A stretch of DNA of 35,515 nt from an uncultured bacterium (lineage in GTDB: Bacteria; Vulcanimicrobiota; Vulcanimicrobiia; Vulcanimicrobiales; Vulcanimicrobiaceae): contig CAIKPM010000026.1 of the NCBI GenBank assembly GCA_903829325.1, positions 1 to 35,515 on the forward strand, read 5' to 3'. The position numbers were made by a program, and so were the translations under genes. Below the pieces are notes generated by a model. The model searched no databases. It worked only from the letters and a program-made list of their open reading frames with translations, and was not told where the DNA came from. Numbering within the stretch: the first letter of the stretch is position 1; every line of letters starts with the position of its first letter. Positions 27,475-35,515 of the stretch are shown piece after piece.

Positions 27475-28839
27475 TTACGGCGCATCGCTGCTGGATACAG
27501 CGGCGATGCGCCCACGAAGATAATCGAGTGCTTGCCGCAATTGATTATCATGCGCTGGGTCACCGAGTTTGACGTTTTTGGCAAGCGCGACGTTCACATC
27601 GGGCTGGATTCCGACACTATTAATATCGCGACCATGGGGCGTAAAATAACGCGCGGTCGTTACTTTTATCGCTGCGCCATCAGGTAAGGGAAAAATGGTC
27701 TGCACGACACCCTTACCAAACGTTCGCGTTCCCATCAGCGTGCCGACCCCGTTATCCTGGATTGCACCTGAGGTAATTTCGGACGCCGAAGCAGTAAAAC
27801 GATTCACCAATACCACCAAAGGCCGTGGCGTAATAGCGGTATCCTCTGCGTTGTACTGGGTGTTGCTACCACCGCGCTCTTTGACGGAAACAATCGGGCC
27901 GCTTGGCACGAATTTTGAGGCGACGTCTACGGCAGCGGTAAGATACCCGCCGCCGTTATCGCGTAGATCAAGCACGTAGGCACGGGCGTTTTGCGCATCG
28001 AGCTTCGATAACGCAGCATCAAGCTCGGTGCCCGTCGTTGCGCCAAAAACGGTGAGGTGAACGTACCCGACCTGATCTGGCAACATTTTTGCAACCACGC
28101 TGGGTTGATGGATGAGCGCACGCGTAATGCTCACGAAACCAGGCACGTGCCGCCCGCCGCGAAGCACGTCAAGCCGGACAATAGTGCCGGCCTTGCCGCG
28201 TAGCCGACGAGAATCGACATCTGTAGGCACGTTTTTGGTTGTTTGACCATCGATCGCTAGAATAAGATCATCAGCTTGCATGCCCATTTTTTCAGCCGGG
28301 CCGCCCGAAATCACCTGATCGACATGCAAATAATGGGTTTTCGGATCGACATTAATCGAAAGTCCTACACCGCTGAAATTGCCACCGTCTAGGTCTTCGT
28401 TTAATGAAGTGTACTCTTGGGGCGTTAAAAACAGCGTGTAGCGATCGCGCACCGAGGCAGCAAGCCCGACCATTTCGGCGTACAGTAAATTCTTGGGCGC
28501 GACCTTATTGCCGTACTGGCCATACGCGCTCTGGAGCTCGGCACGTAAAGCGCGCAGGTTGGCGGTATCATCGCCGACCGCACGCGGATCAGGCAGCGAG
28601 GGATTAGAAACGCCACTCGCTTTCAAACACGTGACTAAGCTCGTATGTGCACCAGTCAGCAGTACTTGCGGATTGATCTGCTTATAGTAATCATCTTCGA
28701 GATGATGATACACCGTGGCGAGCTCATCTTGATTTGCGTCGGTTACCTGCGGGGTTGCGGCATGGCCGACAGCGACACCCGTAGCAACGAGCATGGCGCA
28801 GAGACTAGTAACGAGGAACGGTTTATGGTTTTGCTTCAC
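27475..28839 (-). CDS. S41 C-terminal processing peptidase (second of tandem pair)
   Basis: From GTG 28839 the protein is about 454 residues with a signal anchor (FLVTSLCAMLVATGVAVGHA). A PDZ domain (GVGLSINVDPKTHYLHVDQV, GMQADDLILAIDGQ) is followed by the peptidase core: YVLDLRDNGGGYL, the Ser motif NRFTASASEITSGAIQD and the lysine of TRTFGKGVVQTIFPLP. Such enzymes trim C-termini of periplasmic proteins. It overlaps the upstream paralogue by 17 bases. The start is uncertain because no ribosome binding site is clear; the frame is open to 28905. Confidence 0.88.
   Translation of the reverse strand: MKQNHKPFLVTSLCAMLVATGVAVGHAATPQVTDANQDELATVYHHLEDDYYKQINPQVLLTGAHTSLVTCLKASGVSNPSLPDPRAVGDDTANLRALRAELQSAYGQYGNKVAPKNLLYAEMVGLAASVRDRYTLFLTPQEYTSLNEDLDGGNFSGVGLSINVDPKTHYLHVDQVISGGPAEKMGMQADDLILAIDGQTTKNVPTDVDSRRLRGKAGTIVRLDVLRGGRHVPGFVSITRALIHQPSVVAKMLPDQVGYVHLTVFGATTGTELDAALSKLDAQNARAYVLDLRDNGGGYLTAAVDVASKFVPSGPIVSVKERGGSNTQYNAEDTAITPRPLVVLVNRFTASASEITSGAIQDNGVGTLMGTRTFGKGVVQTIFPLPDGAAIKVTTARYFTPHGRDINSVGIQPDVNVALAKNVKLGDPAHDNQLRQALDYLRGRIAAVSSSDAP
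27479..27512. terminator. Strong hairpin between convergent rne and ctp genes
   Basis: GGCGCATCGC (27479-27488) and GCGATGCGCC (27503-27512) pair perfectly. A T-G wobble and an inner stem GCTG/CAGC close on a GATA loop, giving a near-continuous 15-pair stem. It lies in the last codons of the S41 gene, 14 bases past the rne stop. No strong T-run follows on either strand, so it may act as an RNA end-protection or bidirectional stop element. Confidence 0.5.
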
Positions 28840-30172
28840 GGTGTAACAATGCTTTCGCGGCTGCAAGTTGACGATCGCGCGGAGAGTCGATGTAACGGAA
28901 GTCATCCGGCTGATCGATGATTATATTCGGCAGAATTCCCTTATGCTGAATATCGCGGCCGGCCGGAGTGATGTATCGCGCAGTCGTCACCTTGAGTGCG
29001 CCCTTATTCGAAAGGCTGAAGATCGATTGGACCACGCCCTTCCCATAGGTCTTGGTGCCGATCAGCGTGCCGAGATGATAATCTTGGATCGCGCCTGCGG
29101 TGATCTCAGACGCACTAGCGGAAAAGCGATTCACCAAAACAACGAGTGGCTTCACATTTAAGGATGTTCCCAAAGCCGAACTCGTATCACGGTCGCCGAA
29201 GCGATCGAGGATCGAAACAATCGGTCCACGCGGAATGACGAGGCTCGATACCGCTACAGCCGCGTCGACCAAGCCACCGCCGTTATAGCGTAGATCGAGG
29301 ACGTAGCCACGTACGTGGTGGCGTTGTCCTTCGAGCAGCGCTTTGCGGACCTCGTCACCAGATGTCTCGCCGAAATCGTTCAAGCGAATATAATCAATGT
29401 CGCCTTCGATTTTTGCGTGGACCGAGGGGACATGAATCTGTTCTCGCACGACGCGGATTTGACGCGTGGTACGGGCCTTGGCGTCGCTTTTGACCGTCAG
29501 CAGAACGCTGGTGCCAACTTTGCCGCGAATGAGGTGCTCAACGCTATCAAGCTTCATGCCGTGAACGGGGCGAGAATCGACCGCGACAATAAGGTCCCCC
29601 GGCTTCATCCCAGCGCGCGCGGCCGGGGCGCCATCGATCGGGGCGACGAGCACATTGCCGTGAGCATCCTCGCCGATATAAACACCGATACCGCCGAAAT
29701 CACCGCCTTTGAGCATTTCTTCCAGGCTCGTAAATTCGTGGGGGTCCATGTACGTGCTGTAAGGATCGTGCAAAGACGCCAACAGCCCGCGGATCGCGCC
29801 TTCGGTCAACGACTGCGCGCTAATCTTTGCTTGGTACGAGTTCATCGCCGAGCTGAGCAGTTGCGCCATCGCAACATTATCGCTCTCGGTTTGGCCGCTC
29901 GCTCGCGGGGTCGGGAGCGCATTCGGCGAGGCATGCTGGGCTTTGATGACGCCGATCAACCCGGTACGTTCACCGGCGAGCAGCTCACCGGTCTGAACTG
30001 GCTTGTAGTACGTCGTCTCGACTCGAGTGACAATATCATTGAACAAGTCGAGGTGCGTTTCAGAGACGACAGCCGCCTTGACTCCTCTGCTTTGCAGCGA
30101 AATCAGCGAACCCAAGAGCGCGGCGAGCGCAAGCCCGACGACTGGAACAATTTTCACAACACGTAAACCCAC
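28823..30172 (-). CDS. S41 C-terminal processing peptidase (first of tandem pair)
   Basis: From GTG 30172 (AAAGG six bases upstream) the protein is about 449 residues. An N-terminal anchor (VVKIVPVVGLALAALLGSL) leads to a helical region and a PDZ domain (FGGIGVYIGEDAHGNVLVAP, GMKPGDLIVAVDSRP). The catalytic domain contains YVLDLRYNGGGLVDAA, the Ser motif NRFSASASEITAGAIQD and the lysine of TKTYGKGVVQSIFSL. It resembles the following gene throughout, so the pair arose by duplication. A TTG at 30223 is in frame, but its extra residues are basic and unlike a signal peptide. Confidence 0.9.
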   Translation of the reverse strand: MGLRVVKIVPVVGLALAALLGSLISLQSRGVKAAVVSETHLDLFNDIVTRVETTYYKPVQTGELLAGERTGLIGVIKAQHASPNALPTPRASGQTESDNVAMAQLLSSAMNSYQAKISAQSLTEGAIRGLLASLHDPYSTYMDPHEFTSLEEMLKGGDFGGIGVYIGEDAHGNVLVAPIDGAPAARAGMKPGDLIVAVDSRPVHGMKLDSVEHLIRGKVGTSVLLTVKSDAKARTTRQIRVVREQIHVPSVHAKIEGDIDYIRLNDFGETSGDEVRKALLEGQRHHVRGYVLDLRYNGGGLVDAAVAVSSLVIPRGPIVSILDRFGDRDTSSALGTSLNVKPLVVLVNRFSASASEITAGAIQDYHLGTLIGTKTYGKGVVQSIFSLSNKGALKVTTARYITPAGRDIQHKGILPNIIIDQPDDFRYIDSPRDRQLAAAKALLHREAKP

Positions 30173-30231
30173 GCGGGGCCTTTCGACGCCTCTTCTCAGT
30201 TTCGCTGCCCGAACGGCCCGCAAGCGTCAAG

Positions 30232-30276: not shown

Positions 30277-30286
30277 ATGCTAGCAT
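30277..30286. promoter_or_regulatory. Palindrome ATGCTAGCAT in leader of first TadE-like gene
   Basis: This perfect 10-base palindrome is found again, identical, at 33890-33899 before the paralogous gene. TGCTAATA follows in both leaders (30346 and 33942). The shared order suggests a duplicated regulatory region. Confidence 0.4.
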
Positions 30287-30354
30287 TTCTGGTGGCGACT
30301 TTGCGGCTTACACCAGCGACGGAAATCCAGCTCTGAAGAATGGACTGCTAATAA

Positions 30355-30374
30355 ATTCGGCCTATTCGCCGAAT
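30355..30374 (+). promoter_or_regulatory. Hairpin in leader of first TadE-like gene
   Basis: ATTCGGC (30355-30361) and GCCGAAT (30368-30374) form a seven-pair stem with a CTATTC loop, about 30 bases before the ATG. The paralogous leader keeps the TGCTAATA and CGCCGAA parts but not a clean stem. Confidence 0.35.
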
Positions 30375-30404
30375 CCCTGAAGTAGGGCGAGCCTGAGGAT
30401 GGAT

Positions 30405-31697
30405 ATGGCAAAAGACATGAGATCCAATCAACATCTGCGTGGATCGGCGTTAGTAGAAAGCGCGCTTGTGCTGCCGCTGTATTTCATGATTTTCTTTGCG
30501 CAGCTAACAATTGCGATTATGGGCATGCAACAAATATGTTTAATTGGAGCAAGCTTTGATTATTTACACACGATGATATTTGCCAACGAATCAGATCCCA
30601 CAAATGATGCAAAAAATATGGTTAAGAGTTGGCCTTTTATTCCTCATGAGTTGATATCTTATCAGACAACAAAATCCACAGCGGTCATTCCAAGCGATTC
30701 GCACCCTGCTGATTTCCCTCCACAGTTGGGTGCAGTTCGAGTTCCAATAATCGAAAGTGCAACCTTATCACTGCCCATAAACTATGGGATTCCTTTTTTC
30801 GGCGGAATAACAGGAACGCTGTCAAATACTGCACGCGATAATTATGTCGTATATAACGACGCACAGTATGCGTTACCGTTAATGAGCACTCAAGCCGGCA
30901 CCGAGCAAATGATCTATGGAGGTTACACAACTACATTTTATCCATCAATTTCCGGAGCGAGCAATATGTTCAGTTGCGATTATGAGTTTCCACCTAATGG
31001 TGGAATCGCAGGCGGACCTCCACAGAACGATCAAGCTCCAACAGGCAAAGAGCCAAAATTTTCTACAGGAGCATATTATAGTAACGCAGCGTGGGATACT
31101 TGCCCGCCGTTCACCATTACCAAGCCACCAACGGGCTATGTCACGACACCCGATCCAACAGACACAAACAACGAAGTGACGTATTCATTTAAACCTTTAA
31201 ACTTGAGCTTCAAACTCGCTACCGAGGAACTCGAACAAAAAAATCCGGGTGTCAGCACCCCTGTAAACTTATCTTTTATCACTGCCGATGAATGCAATAC
31301 AAACCCAATACGAACATATTGCGAAGCTCCAAAACCGGATGAAACACCCCAGGCAACTCCGCTATACTCAAACACAGGAACAACTTTTGGGAATGCAGCC
31401 ATCATGCAAGAGTTCTACGAAAGCATCGCACTGTTCCTAGGCGGAATAGCTGATGATAAACCTATAAGATCAGAACTCAAGCTCGTATCGTCAACAGACG
31501 CAAACGTGGCCTCAACCGCGAGAGATAAGCTTTTAGGCAGGTACGAGAATGGAACAAACATCTACTCCTTTCATAGCTTTGATTCGTATTTAACGGGCAC
31601 ATATGGCGAAATGATCAAAATCGACCCATTCACACAGATCGAGGATAAGGATAGCAACTTTAGCTTAGCACCCGGTCCGGCACGTATACCCTATTAA
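30405..31697 (+). CDS. TadE-like pseudopilin protein (copy A)
   Basis: This 430-residue protein starts at ATG 30405, with TGAGG six bases upstream. A short basic leader ends in RG, then SALVESALVLPLYFMIFFAQ forms the single membrane helix. Gly13 as -1 and Glu18 as +5 fit class III prepilin signals cleaved by prepilin peptidases. The large C-terminal region is exposed and carries conserved cysteine motifs (CDYEF, DTCPPF, ADECNTNP, YCEAPKPDETPQ). Such proteins assist Tad/Flp pilus or secreted structures. It is much longer than classic TadE (about 150-200 residues). A paralogue follows 3.6 kb downstream. The region is visibly A+T-rich. Confidence 0.7.
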   Translation: MAKDMRSNQHLRGSALVESALVLPLYFMIFFAQLTIAIMGMQQICLIGASFDYLHTMIFANESDPTNDAKNMVKSWPFIPHELISYQTTKSTAVIPSDSHPADFPPQLGAVRVPIIESATLSLPINYGIPFFGGITGTLSNTARDNYVVYNDAQYALPLMSTQAGTEQMIYGGYTTTFYPSISGASNMFSCDYEFPPNGGIAGGPPQNDQAPTGKEPKFSTGAYYSNAAWDTCPPFTITKPPTGYVTTPDPTDTNNEVTYSFKPLNLSFKLATEELEQKNPGVSTPVNLSFITADECNTNPIRTYCEAPKPDETPQATPLYSNTGTTFGNAAIMQEFYESIALFLGGIADDKPIRSELKLVSSTDANVASTARDKLLGRYENGTNIYSFHSFDSYLTGTYGEMIKIDPFTQIEDKDSNFSLAPGPARIPY

Positions 31698-31796
31698 GAC
31701 CTACTAACGCACAGTCCATTTGCAAGTTACGATAACTTCTGCTTCATTTCATTGCACGGCATAGCAGTTTACAACAGGATAGAATGCGAGAAAATC

Positions 31797-32981
31797 ATGG
31801 CAATCAATCTCAATCTGATGAGATATCACACTAGGCGAAAACCTGCGAGGTGCAATCCAGTCAAGGGCGGGAAAGACACGCTAATTAGGCAGAAGCAACG
31901 AAATGCGCGGGGACAGACGGCGCCAATACTGGCGATCATGTTACCAGTCCAAATTATACTGATGGGGGCAACAAGCGCGGTTGGGAGCTATGCGTGGCAT
32001 CATATAGCACTTCAAACTGCTGTTGATAATGCAGCAAAAACGCTTGCCAGCGTTCAAGCGTTCCAATTCAACCGCATCGAAATGATCACCCTCGCTGGAT
32101 CTGTGGAAGAATATCGCATCAGATCATTGATAGATGGTGCATTCATCGCAGGTCAAGGGAACGGTGGCTGCGCGCTATCCACTAGTTGCCGAGACGATTT
32201 CCAAGCATTAAGTAAAGCCCTGGTCGAATCTGTCAACCGCTATACCAAGCTCCTTAATTTGGCGAATCAAGCAATGTATGGCATGGATCTGCCCTCACTC
32301 AAGTCAAATATATCATCAGTCCTTACCGTCATGAGCGATCCAACATTTAGCATTACATACAATCAACCAGGCCTACAAAGGCCATATCTATATTATGCTT
32401 TACATATGGACACAACACAGAATCCGTTGCGGGGCTATGTCGGGACTGCGCAAGCTTGTGACATACTTGGTCAAACTTTACCACAATGCTTCGTAGCCGT
32501 CGGCCCAAGAATGAAATTATTTTCATTAGGAGACATTGGCCTGACCCCACCGTACTCCCAATATTCGACATTCGCCCCTAGCCTACGGACAAATACCACA
32601 TTCTCGCCAATCATCGCAGATTTTTGGAATCCACTTAAAGTCGAAATAAGCGCTTGTGACGACGTACAGCTAGGCCCTTTACTACCACAAATGATTATTA
32701 CCGCGCATGCGGCAGCCGAGCCTGAAGCCAGCGTCTTTATGGCGCGCAATAATTCAGCATTCGACAACTTTAATTGCGGGTCAAGCTGCATTGACTATTT
32801 CCCCAAAGAAAGCTGGGCCAAAGGTCGAGATCAACAGTGGGACTGGTACGACCCAAATTGGCAAACGCCGGTTGGCATGTGGACTACTGGCGATCTTATG
32901 GTATGGTTTTCGCCAATATTAGTGCAACCAACCTACAATCCCATAACGCGTCCTCGTGCAGGAGCCAAGTGTGATAGCTAA
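31797..32981 (+). CDS. TadG-like membrane-anchored protein
   Basis: This 394-residue protein has a basic N-terminus and RGQTAPILAIMLPVQIILMG as membrane helix, then YAWHHIALQTAVDNAAKTLA. That is the pattern of TadG-like proteins (RGxxA...LQxAvDaAALAAA). It lacks Glu at +5, so it is probably not processed by the prepilin peptidase. The rest is exposed and contains paired cysteines (GGCALSTSCRDD, CDILGQTLPQC, CGSSCIDYF). No vWA domain is visible. ATG 31797 is chosen over a TTG at 31752. It overlaps the next gene. Confidence 0.6.
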   Translation: MAINLNLMRYHTRRKPARCNPVKGGKDTLIRQKQRNARGQTAPILAIMLPVQIILMGATSAVGSYAWHHIALQTAVDNAAKTLASVQAFQFNRIEMITLAGSVEEYRIRSLIDGAFIAGQGNGGCALSTSCRDDFQALSKALVESVNRYTKLLNLANQAMYGMDLPSLKSNISSVLTVMSDPTFSITYNQPGLQRPYLYYALHMDTTQNPLRGYVGTAQACDILGQTLPQCFVAVGPRMKLFSLGDIGLTPPYSQYSTFAPSLRTNTTFSPIIADFWNPLKVEISACDDVQLGPLLPQMIITAHAAAEPEASVFMARNNSAFDNFNCGSSCIDYFPKESWAKGRDQQWDWYDPNWQTPVGMWTTGDLMVWFSPILVQPTYNPITRPRAGAKCDS

Positions 32982-33825
32982 GACCGCGAGCGAACAAGGC
33001 GTTTTCAAAGCATTGTGCACCAGACTCGGCAGACTGAAGCGTCTGCTTGTAGATCGCCAGTATACTTCACGGGGTCAAGCGATTGTCGAATTTAGTATCT
33101 TGGCGCCATTTATGTTGTTTGTGCTGATACTGACAGTGGGAAGATTAGCAATTGGCCTATATTCCTTGCAGCTACAAATGACAGAGCACACACTAAACAA
33201 CATCCTCAACGATCCAAATCCCGCTGCTGACTTTAATACGAGCCTGATCCAATATAATATTGGCAAATTACAAAACGGTTCATTAAGCCTAACAAGTAAA
33301 GCATACGATCAGAAAAACCTGCTCGATATGCTTAATGGCACTGCAGATGATGGAACAACCACACAATTTTCACTAGCACAATTAAAGTTCAGCAACTGGT
33401 ATGCAGCCAATAAACACAACGTTTCTGTGATGACTCCCCAAACGCTAGTCTTGCAATTTCCACCACCAGGATCATCAATACCAAGCTGGATAGGGTCTCC
33501 AATCTTTTTCACCACCACCACCACCACAATTGAGACCAATCTGCAAAGTAATCATCCGATCATTAGTAAGATGTTTTTCAATCTGGTAGGCATCAATCTC
33601 ATCAGCTCTGTGTCAAACACAAGTTTTCGACCGGCAGGCATTCAGACCATGATGCATTGTTATAGGGATATTCACGACACAATAACCAACACACTCAAGC
33701 CGGACGCTGATACAATTGACGACACGAACATGACTCAACTCGGCGTCGCCGGCAGTACCGTCACGGCTGGAAACGTTCCGCTCGTCACACTACCGATTGG
33801 AAGCGATAATCTCTGCAAAAATTAG
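32971..33825 (+). CDS. TadE-like pseudopilin protein (shorter type)
   Basis: From GTG 32971 (GGAG six bases upstream) the protein is 284 residues. A basic leader of about 35 residues ends in SRG, followed by QAIVEFSILAPFMLFVLILT. Gly35 at -1 and Glu40 at +5 give the prepilin signature. The exposed part is polar with few cysteines (HCYRD, LCKN). It overlaps the stop of the TadG-like gene by 11 bases, so the two are co-translated. It is unrelated in sequence to copies A and A' apart from the leader and helix. Confidence 0.65.
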   Translation: MIAKTASEQGVFKALCTRLGRLKRLLVDRQYTSRGQAIVEFSILAPFMLFVLILTVGRLAIGLYSLQLQMTEHTLNNILNDPNPAADFNTSLIQYNIGKLQNGSLSLTSKAYDQKNLLDMLNGTADDGTTTQFSLAQLKFSNWYAANKHNVSVMTPQTLVLQFPPPGSSIPSWIGSPIFFTTTTTTIETNLQSNHPIISKMFFNLVGINLISSVSNTSFRPAGIQTMMHCYRDIHDTITNTLKPDADTIDDTNMTQLGVAGSTVTAGNVPLVTLPIGSDNLCKN

Positions 33826-33889
33826 ACCGAGCACTCATTGTCAATTTTCGGCAAAGCACGCTACAGCCTCAGCTGCAACAGAGAGGCCT

Positions 33890-33899
33890 ATGCTAGCAT
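33890..33899. promoter_or_regulatory. Palindrome ATGCTAGCAT in leader of second TadE-like copy
   Basis: Identical to the palindrome at 30277-30286, again followed by TGCTAATA (33942-33949) and a CGCCGAA stretch before the start codon. The leader is duplicated together with the gene. Confidence 0.4.
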
Positions 33900-33986
33900 T
33901 GCCGTAGTGCCTGTCGCGTACTATCAAGCCCAAAAGCGGGGTGCTAATAGATTTTTCCTGATGCGCCGAAAACCGAAGATGAGGGT

Positions 33987-35396
33987 ATGGATGGCAAAGC
34001 AGATGAACGCAACTCGACACCCCGTGGATCGGCTTTAGTCGAAAGCGCAATTGTGTTGCCGCTGTATTTCATGATTTTCTTTTCTCAGCTACTAATTTCA
34101 CTATTCATTACCCAACAGATTTCGTTAATTGGCGCAAGCTTCGATTATTTACATACAGTCCTTTTCTCAAATGAAAGTGTCGTCAAAGCCCAAAAAGAGG
34201 CTAAGCATACAATCGATGCTTGGCCCTTGATCTCCGCGAAGTCGGTTACCATCACTCCTCACACCCCGGAGCCAATCGTCCTCCCCAAAACACCGGCTGC
34301 TCCAGCAAGTGTGCCAGCGTCAGCACCAAATCCCCAAGCGTTTCCAGCCATCGGGGCAATACGTTTACCAATATTACAAGATGTGACATTATCGATGAGT
34401 TTCAAATATAATATTCCTTTTTTTGGAGAAATCAAAGGAGCAATAGAAAATACTGCCAGTGATAATTACATCGTATATAATACTGCACAATATGCATTAC
34501 CCCTCATGACGACAATCAGCGCAACGACCACAGATACAGAGCAAATGATCTACGGTGGCTACACAACCGCATTCTATCCCTTCATTGCCGGAACCAACAA
34601 CCTCTTCACCTGTGATTACCAGACACAGAATCCCGTGAATCTTTCAAGTGTCGTCACCTTGAGCACGGCTAATAATTTAGCAGGGCATATCTCCGGCGGA
34701 CCTCCATGGAATGATGCAATGCCACAAACGGGCGAACCGGCGTTTCAGGCAAAATTCTACGATTATAAAATGGTAACAAGAAAAGGTTATGATGATGCTG
34801 GGAACATTATCACCTATGATACTTATCCATTTTTTGGACCAGCTGGAGCCGGAGGCGGCATCGGCGGGTACTATTATAATGCGAAATGGGATACGTGCCC
34901 GCCCATTCCGGTAAAAAAACCTCCTGCAGACTACGTCACAACACCAGACACAACAGTACCCAACGCGGTATTTAATGGGCTACCAGCACAGGCAGGTGCG
35001 ACACAGGAAACCTACTCGCTGCAACCCATCAATTTAGGGTTTAAGCTTGCAACTGAAGAGCTCGAACAGCTAACGCCAGGTGCAAATAAATATCCGGGCA
35101 ATCCCAATTACAAAACGAAATTTGTTTCTGCAGATCTATGTGATCCCATTAACAATACATGGACAAAGAATGCAAGCTGCGAAGCGCCCACTCCGGATCA
35201 AACGCCGCAGCCACAGCCATTATACCCTAACCAAGGTGCCACACTTGGTGGAGCAGCACAGATACAAGTCTATTACGCAGGGATAGCAAAATATTTGGGC
35301 GGCAGCGCAGGCTGGTGGGGCGATACTCTTTTGATGAGTGCCCTTGCGGATGCATCTTCCTCAAACGCCATCACCGGAATATGTCAACCTGTATGA
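33987..35396 (+). CDS. TadE-like pseudopilin protein (copy A'), start region shifted
   Basis: This 469-residue paralogue of copy A has RGSALVESAIVLPLYFMIFF at the helix, with Gly14 at -1 and Glu19 at +5. It shares with copy A the segments LIGASFDYLHT, YGGYTT, WDTCPP, YVTTPD, LATEELEQ and CEAP-PD-TPQ, with insertions such as a Pro/Ala-rich stretch near residue 100 and a Gly-rich loop near residue 290. The in-frame ATG at 33987 stands only one base from GAGGG. The ATG at 33991, which is equivalent to copy A's start and ideally spaced, is out of frame and meets a stop after 15 codons. The gene may therefore be poorly expressed or decaying. Confidence 0.65.
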   Translation: MDGKADERNSTPRGSALVESAIVLPLYFMIFFSQLLISLFITQQISLIGASFDYLHTVLFSNESVVKAQKEAKHTIDAWPLISAKSVTITPHTPEPIVLPKTPAAPASVPASAPNPQAFPAIGAIRLPILQDVTLSMSFKYNIPFFGEIKGAIENTASDNYIVYNTAQYALPLMTTISATTTDTEQMIYGGYTTAFYPFIAGTNNLFTCDYQTQNPVNLSSVVTLSTANNLAGHISGGPPWNDAMPQTGEPAFQAKFYDYKMVTRKGYDDAGNIITYDTYPFFGPAGAGGGIGGYYYNAKWDTCPPIPVKKPPADYVTTPDTTVPNAVFNGLPAQAGATQETYSLQPINLGFKLATEELEQLTPGANKYPGNPNYKTKFVSADLCDPINNTWTKNASCEAPTPDQTPQPQPLYPNQGATLGGAAQIQVYYAGIAKYLGGSAGWWGDTLLMSALADASSSNAITGICQPV

Positions 35397-35515
35397 GGCC
35401 ACGGTAGCTTAAAAATACATGGACCGCCTCGACTAAGCCGCCATCGATATTGCTTCCTCTCCTAGCACCACCGGACGATTAATATACGATGCCGATGCGA
35501 GCTGAAGCGGACGCG
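35397..35515. other. Trailing stretch after copy A'
   Basis: No gene start, palindrome ATGCTAGCAT or clear terminator is visible in these 119 bases. If the A-B-C cassette repeats, a TadG-like gene would be expected shortly after the window edge. Confidence 0.3.

Follow-up and report, generated by a model that had tools for sequence, protein, structure and literature searches.

Gene content of the array

The window analysed here, 35,515 nt from an uncultured member of the Vulcanimicrobiaceae (phylum Eremiobacterota), is the whole of contig C26 of a 1.89 Mb metagenome-assembled genome (MAG) that comprises 70 contigs and is 96% complete. Its alanyl-tRNA synthetase has its nearest matches, mostly at 57–65% identity, in Candidatus Eremiobacterota MAGs. 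Its right end carries an array of four genes, all on the + strand, which encode putative minor pilins of the Tad (Flp, type IVc) pilus class and are named here A1, B1, protein C1 and A2. The open reading frames (ORFs) confirm the order given in a preliminary description of this DNA, in which a TadE-like gene, a TadG-like gene and a short TadE-like gene were followed by a paralogue of the first close to the window edge. Over the protein, A1 and A2 share 55% identity, and A2 keeps four of the five Cys of A1. The array (30399–35374) has a G+C content of 42–49%, against 55% for the window.

Proteins A and C begin with a short leader, a prepilin site of the form G|xxxxE (Glu at +5) and then a hydrophobic helix, the site reading RG|SALVE in A1 and A2, RG|QAIVE in protein C1 and RG|QALVE in C2, a second C gene described below. 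In a genome scan A1 reached 24.3 bits against the TadE profile, with A1, A2 and C2 at 24–25 bits, and a relative of A reached 26.1 bits against Pfam TadE. The N-terminus of B carries RGQ without Glu at +5, which we take to be TadG-like. All tested relatives of B score above the cut-off of PF13400 (Tad, TadE/G-like), and B1 aligns with them; the B relatives have in common RGQ..P.W, IRAQNAADSAA, GGC...C, DCAF, VDVVAC and a C-terminal Cys. Some TadG proteins carry a vWA domain. None was found in B1 or the B relatives tested, and this absence is not taken as defining because KilN-type TadG homologues carry other distal domains. Through iterated profiles the three proteins are linked to triads in 10 or more relatives. 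NCBIfam offered no name for A, B or C, the B alignment had no meaningful match among PDB sequences (best E 0.3), and a search of the genome contigs gave no named relatives of A. These features point to A and C as TadE-like and B as TadG-like minor pilins.

The second cassette beyond the window

The preliminary description had proposed that an A-B-C cassette encoding pseudopilin-type proteins was expanded in tandem, so that further B and C copies should lie past the window edge, and such copies were found on contig C1. With A1 as query against the genome, A2 is the sole other match. With B1, a second B (B2) was found at the very end of contig C1 (residues 279–407, 57% identity), where the gene resumes after an intron as WNPLNIEV...; its last part, of 117 aa, is 61.5% identical to B1. 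The second C gene, C2, lies at contig C1:10446-11408 on the minus strand and is 39% identical to protein C1. A maximum-likelihood tree of the TadE-like proteins separates A from C as two clans (support 99/98), within which A1 pairs with A2 (100/100) and protein C1 with C2 (99/96); these pairings indicate that duplication in this lineage took in the cassette as a whole.

Beyond C2 on contig C1, and convergent with it, are genes for an M23 peptidase (presumably of EnvC type) and for what we take, from position, to be FtsX and FtsE, in an order that is conserved in relatives. An S41 gene comes after the M23 gene on the same strand, within a 1.5 kb flank, in 26 of 29 family relatives. Of the other three, G007 has the S41 gene after ∼1.3 kb, one is cut by a contig end and G017 is without an S41 gene. 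On the window side, two S41 (CtpA-type) peptidases and RNase E precede A1 divergently. Contig C1 thus reads FtsE+, FtsX+, M23+, C2-, B2-, and the reversed window A2-, C1-, B1-, A1-, S41+. Because contig C1 carries ftsE-ftsX-envC, envC adjoins ctpA in the relatives and the strands fit, contigs C1 and C26 probably face each other, and synteny would place an array A1-B1-C1-A2-B2-C2 on the opposite strand in the interval from envC to ctpA. This predicted location goes beyond the preliminary description, as do the cutting of the second copy by mobile DNA and the phylum-wide occurrence of the triad, both set out below.

Mobile DNA in the second cassette

A2 had been described as a paralogue of A, which is correct except at its 3' end. 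The window and contig C27 end in the same 141 nt (C27:11457-11597), and 72 nt of this repeat match the start of contig C70 (C70:1-72), making three places in the genome. The A2 tail, GICQPV and a stop codon, therefore comes from the repeat and not from A sequence, and the repeat ends A2 after residue 462 or 463. The idea that A2 merely ended differently was dropped, since the terminal 141 nt recur on contig C27. The repeat gave no plasmid match and no credible Rfam match.

The terminal ∼136 nt of contig C1 also recur, at five other places that are mostly contig ends. Within them, C1:11632-11694 matches RF01999, the 5' part of a group II intron (50.9 bits, gathering cut-off 36), and the intron starts with GTGCGCC at C1:11559. 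Rhizobial plasmids hold DNA 81–89% identical to this 5' end over about 80–100 nt. We take the element to be RmInt1-like, after the Sinorhizobium intron, a likeness that lies in the RF01999 match and the rhizobial plasmid copies and is limited to the first ∼136 nt, the intron-encoded protein not having been recovered. As the intron lies antisense to B2, splicing could not remove it from a transcript of B2. Genome searches with A1 and B1 did not find the remainder of A2 or the beginning of B2 in the assembly; these parts may have been deleted, or may be on a short contig that was not binned with the genome. With A2 ended by the repeat and B2 interrupted by an antisense group II intron, the second cassette probably does not function in the population that was sequenced.

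One RmInt1-like group II intron is represented in the genome by at least six 5' ends (L129:11559-11694, on contig C1, and L239–L243), each preceded by the same short exon motif, CCAA/T/C. Several of these copies are inside genes that carry IWFT-type repeats and look, by eye, virginiamycin B lyase-like. At the start of contig C1 there is an intron 3' end, with RF00029 at L129:16-91.

Leader sequences and feature coordinates

Both A leaders carry ATGCTAGCAT, TGCTAATA and CGCCGAA, as previously described. The palindrome ATGCTAGCAT is a possible operator; across the 1.89 Mb genome it occurs at exactly these two leader sites and so is not the common, randomly placed word that would have spoken against its significance. 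The longest word common to both leaders is ATGCTAGCATT (11 nt), a length reached by 2 of 300 shuffles; because one leader is a duplicate of the other, part of this sharing can be put down to common descent alone. A structured RNA leader was rejected, as Rfam gave no match and folding was no better than that of shuffles. ATACTAGCAT, one mismatch from ATGCTAGCAT, lies at L128:5280-5289 on contig C62, between the diverging cpaC and flp genes of the Tad locus described below. Its presence there may be due to chance, and a palindrome-based regulon link to that locus is weak because the number of near-matches in it equals chance expectation. For B1, the ATG at 31797 (394 aa) is a more likely start than the one tabulated.

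Table 1. Predicted genes and sequence features of the array and its left flank (window positions).
Feature	Position	Strand	Evidence or remark
A1, TadE-like minor pilin, 432 aa	30399-31697	+	Prepilin site; Pfam TadE near cut-off; tree
B1, TadG-like large minor pilin, 409 aa, 9 Cys	31752-32981	+	RGQ without Glu at +5; relatives match PF13400
Protein C1, short TadE-like minor pilin, 289 aa	32956-33825	+	Prepilin site; tree
A2, paralogue of A1 (ORF 33987-35396, 469 aa), A-type part	33987-35374	+	3' end cut by repeat
Start of repeated element, contig ends inside	35375-35515		Shared with contigs C27 and C70
Palindrome ATGCTAGCAT, leader of A1	30277-30286		One of two genome occurrences
Palindrome ATGCTAGCAT, leader of A2	33890-33899		One of two genome occurrences
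TGCTAATA ... CGCCGAA stretch common to both A leaders (A1 copy)	30346-30373	+	Leader comparison
S41 (CtpA-type) peptidase at the left edge of the array; adjoins envC in relatives	28823-30223	-	Family match; synteny
Second S41 peptidase, same flank	27475-28905	-	Family match; synteny

The Tad machinery and the triad across Eremiobacterota

The earlier statement that pilin, ATPase and secretin genes are missing is true for the window but not for the genome, which has one complete Tad locus on contig C62 (106.7 kb). This locus encodes a CpaC secretin, Flp pilin, TadV, CpaB/RcpC, a fused TadZ-TadA, TadB and TadC in intact open frames, with Flp and TadV judged from sequence and a TadV relative in L136 matching Peptidase_A24. 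The fusion of TadZ (ParA type) to TadA is 701 aa long (L128:7626-9731), and matches over most of its length were found in about half of the phylum genomes searched.

In relatives the genes run TadC-TadB-TadZA-CpaB-TadV-Flp and diverge from CpaC-A-B-C, the triad usually being directly behind the secretin gene. Behind cpaC on contig C62 there are no A-B-C-like genes, and a membrane protein gene on the other strand stands in their place. Among the 121 phylum genomes compared, a strong B match (E below 1e-40) is present in 38, and TadZA accompanies it in 36 of these, against 20 of the 83 genomes without B (Fisher p = 8e-14). Where B and TadZA are listed on one contig (28 B copies), the distance between them is 4.0–5.8 kb in 26 cases. 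Judged from these sequence comparisons, the A-B-C triad is a phylum-wide Tad minor-pilin module. Since the Tad machinery on contig C62 lacks a triad of its own, the triad was probably displaced and then duplicated as a unit; displaced triads without an adjoining secretin also occur in G014, G016 and G046.

The genome studied here has two triads, one of them interrupted, to one TadZA. G016, which is 75% complete, has four triads to two TadZA loci, namely a tandem pair (A/A' 71%, B/B' 72%, C/C' 65% identity) and two more distant triads, and G046 has two orphan cassettes. Cassettes of one genome often fall in different branches of the tree (G016, G046, G081). The second triad of G081 was not used as evidence of an excess over machines, as it is accompanied by its own secretin, pilin and TadV before the contig ends, and may belong to a second machine. 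In G016:C41:28000-47900 (L131), three A-B-C triads, two of them tandem, and a TadG-TadE-TadE set lie within 12 kb; no other Tad genes were seen on the parts of this contig that were read.

Proposed function

Taking gene order, homology and duplication together, we consider it likely that the products of the array form the minor-pilin (tip) complex of the single Tad (Flp) pilus of the cell, encoded in two paralogous cassettes. TadV, encoded on contig C62, would cleave the TadE/TadF-like prepilins A and C at RG|xxxxE, and B would serve as the large, TadG-like subunit. The three proteins, one copy of each, would assemble in the inner membrane via their N-terminal helices, and the complex would start polymerisation of Flp pilin by the TadZ-TadA/TadB/TadC motor, pass the CpaC secretin and cap the end of the filament, where A and B would present their large domains, which are probably disulfide-bonded, to surfaces or partner cells. 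The triad would originally have stood behind cpaC, as it does in relatives, and in this lineage moved between envC and ctpA, after which duplication of the cassette as a unit would have given rise to a second, diverging tip. With the second copy broken, the cell probably now runs on A1-B1-C1.

Several points weigh against this interpretation. The Pfam TadE scores of A1, A2 and protein C1 are 20.3, 20.2 and 17.3 bits, just below the cut-off of 22.9. B1 itself has no meaningful family match, the link of the proteins to these families comes through iterative profiles, and AlphaFold models were useless, with a mean pLDDT of 30 for A1 with an A1+A2 alignment and 32 for B1 alone. The contig join comes from synteny and not from within one read, further cassettes may lie in the gap, and with a MAG that is 96% complete other cassettes could be missing.

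Among other explanations, the displaced array could be a decaying relic, both cassettes being lost and the Tad pilus either working without a triad or going unused. The low G+C content of the array, the interruption of A2 and B2 and the strong divergence from all relatives would fit such decay, but the frames of A1, B1 and protein C1 are open over their full length, their prepilin sites and Cys are conserved, the leader motifs persist in both copies and the Tad genes of contig C62 are intact, so that we regard a relic as unlikely. More improbable still is that the cassettes serve a type IVa pilus of the same cell. PilB- and PilT-like ATPases are present in the genome (contig C46), the pili of the cultivated Eremiobacterota member Vulcanimicrobium have been ascribed to type IV pili (PMC9758169), and prepilin peptidases can be promiscuous (PMC12075869); against this, the triad of relatives stands directly behind the Tad secretin gene and co-occurs with TadZ-TadA, and A, B and C resemble TadE/TadG profiles, with no other pilin family matched. 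An error in the contig join, which would make B2 and C2 a separate locus and leave A2 alone, is given hardly any weight, for although both contig ends are in repeats, so that no overlap proves the join, the gene order and strands of both contigs fit the conserved ftsEX-envC-ctpA order exactly.

Comparison with known systems

The putative tip array resembles TadE/TadF/TadG of Tad pili in its three adjacent genes, in the RG|xxxxE N-terminus of A and C and the TadG-like RGQ N-terminus of B, in its position next to the cpaC/rcpA secretin gene in relatives and in the presence of a Tad machine in the same genome. It differs in the order, which is E-G-E, in the length of A (432–469 aa), in being duplicated and outside the tad locus, and in having sequences at or below the curated family cut-offs. 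Tad pili are among the commonest bacterial filaments.

A role for their TadE/F/G proteins, as exchangeable tips, has been proposed only recently, on genetic evidence from Myxococcus (PMC12075869). The Kil (Tad-like) pilus of Myxococcus has four paralogous TadE/F/G-like triads, any one of which suffices for polymerisation; deleting all four abolishes pilus formation, and models put the trimer at the filament tip (PMC12075869). Like Kil tips 1–4 of M. xanthus (kilL-kilM-kilN), the two cassettes here are paralogous triads that would serve one pilus machine. The separate gene clusters, extended C-terminal domains and predicted disulfides of the Kil tips (PMC12075869) are shared with the array at the level of description and not of sequence comparison. 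The two copies here differ from the Kil tips in standing head to tail and in coming with no evidence of predation. Kil tip genes were found by sequence in Myxococcota only (PMC12075869), and no pilus-tip repertoire in Eremiobacterota was described in the literature searched.

Both in this genome and, independently, in G016, the whole cassette has been duplicated and has moved away from the machine genes, which is what the evolution of alternative tips would be expected to look like. These findings suggest that Eremiobacterota, a phylum far from the myxobacteria and one in which we know of no predators, may likewise have swappable pilus tips, which have so far been shown in predatory myxobacteria. 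A wider proposal, which we offer tentatively and as doubtful, is that Eremiobacterota maintain sets of interchangeable Tad tips in the form of mobile three-gene cassettes that duplicate in tandem (two here, four in G016, among them its independent tandem pair, and two orphan ones in G046), and that mobile elements switch individual tips off. The A, B and C families would allow the tip idea to be tested outside predators.

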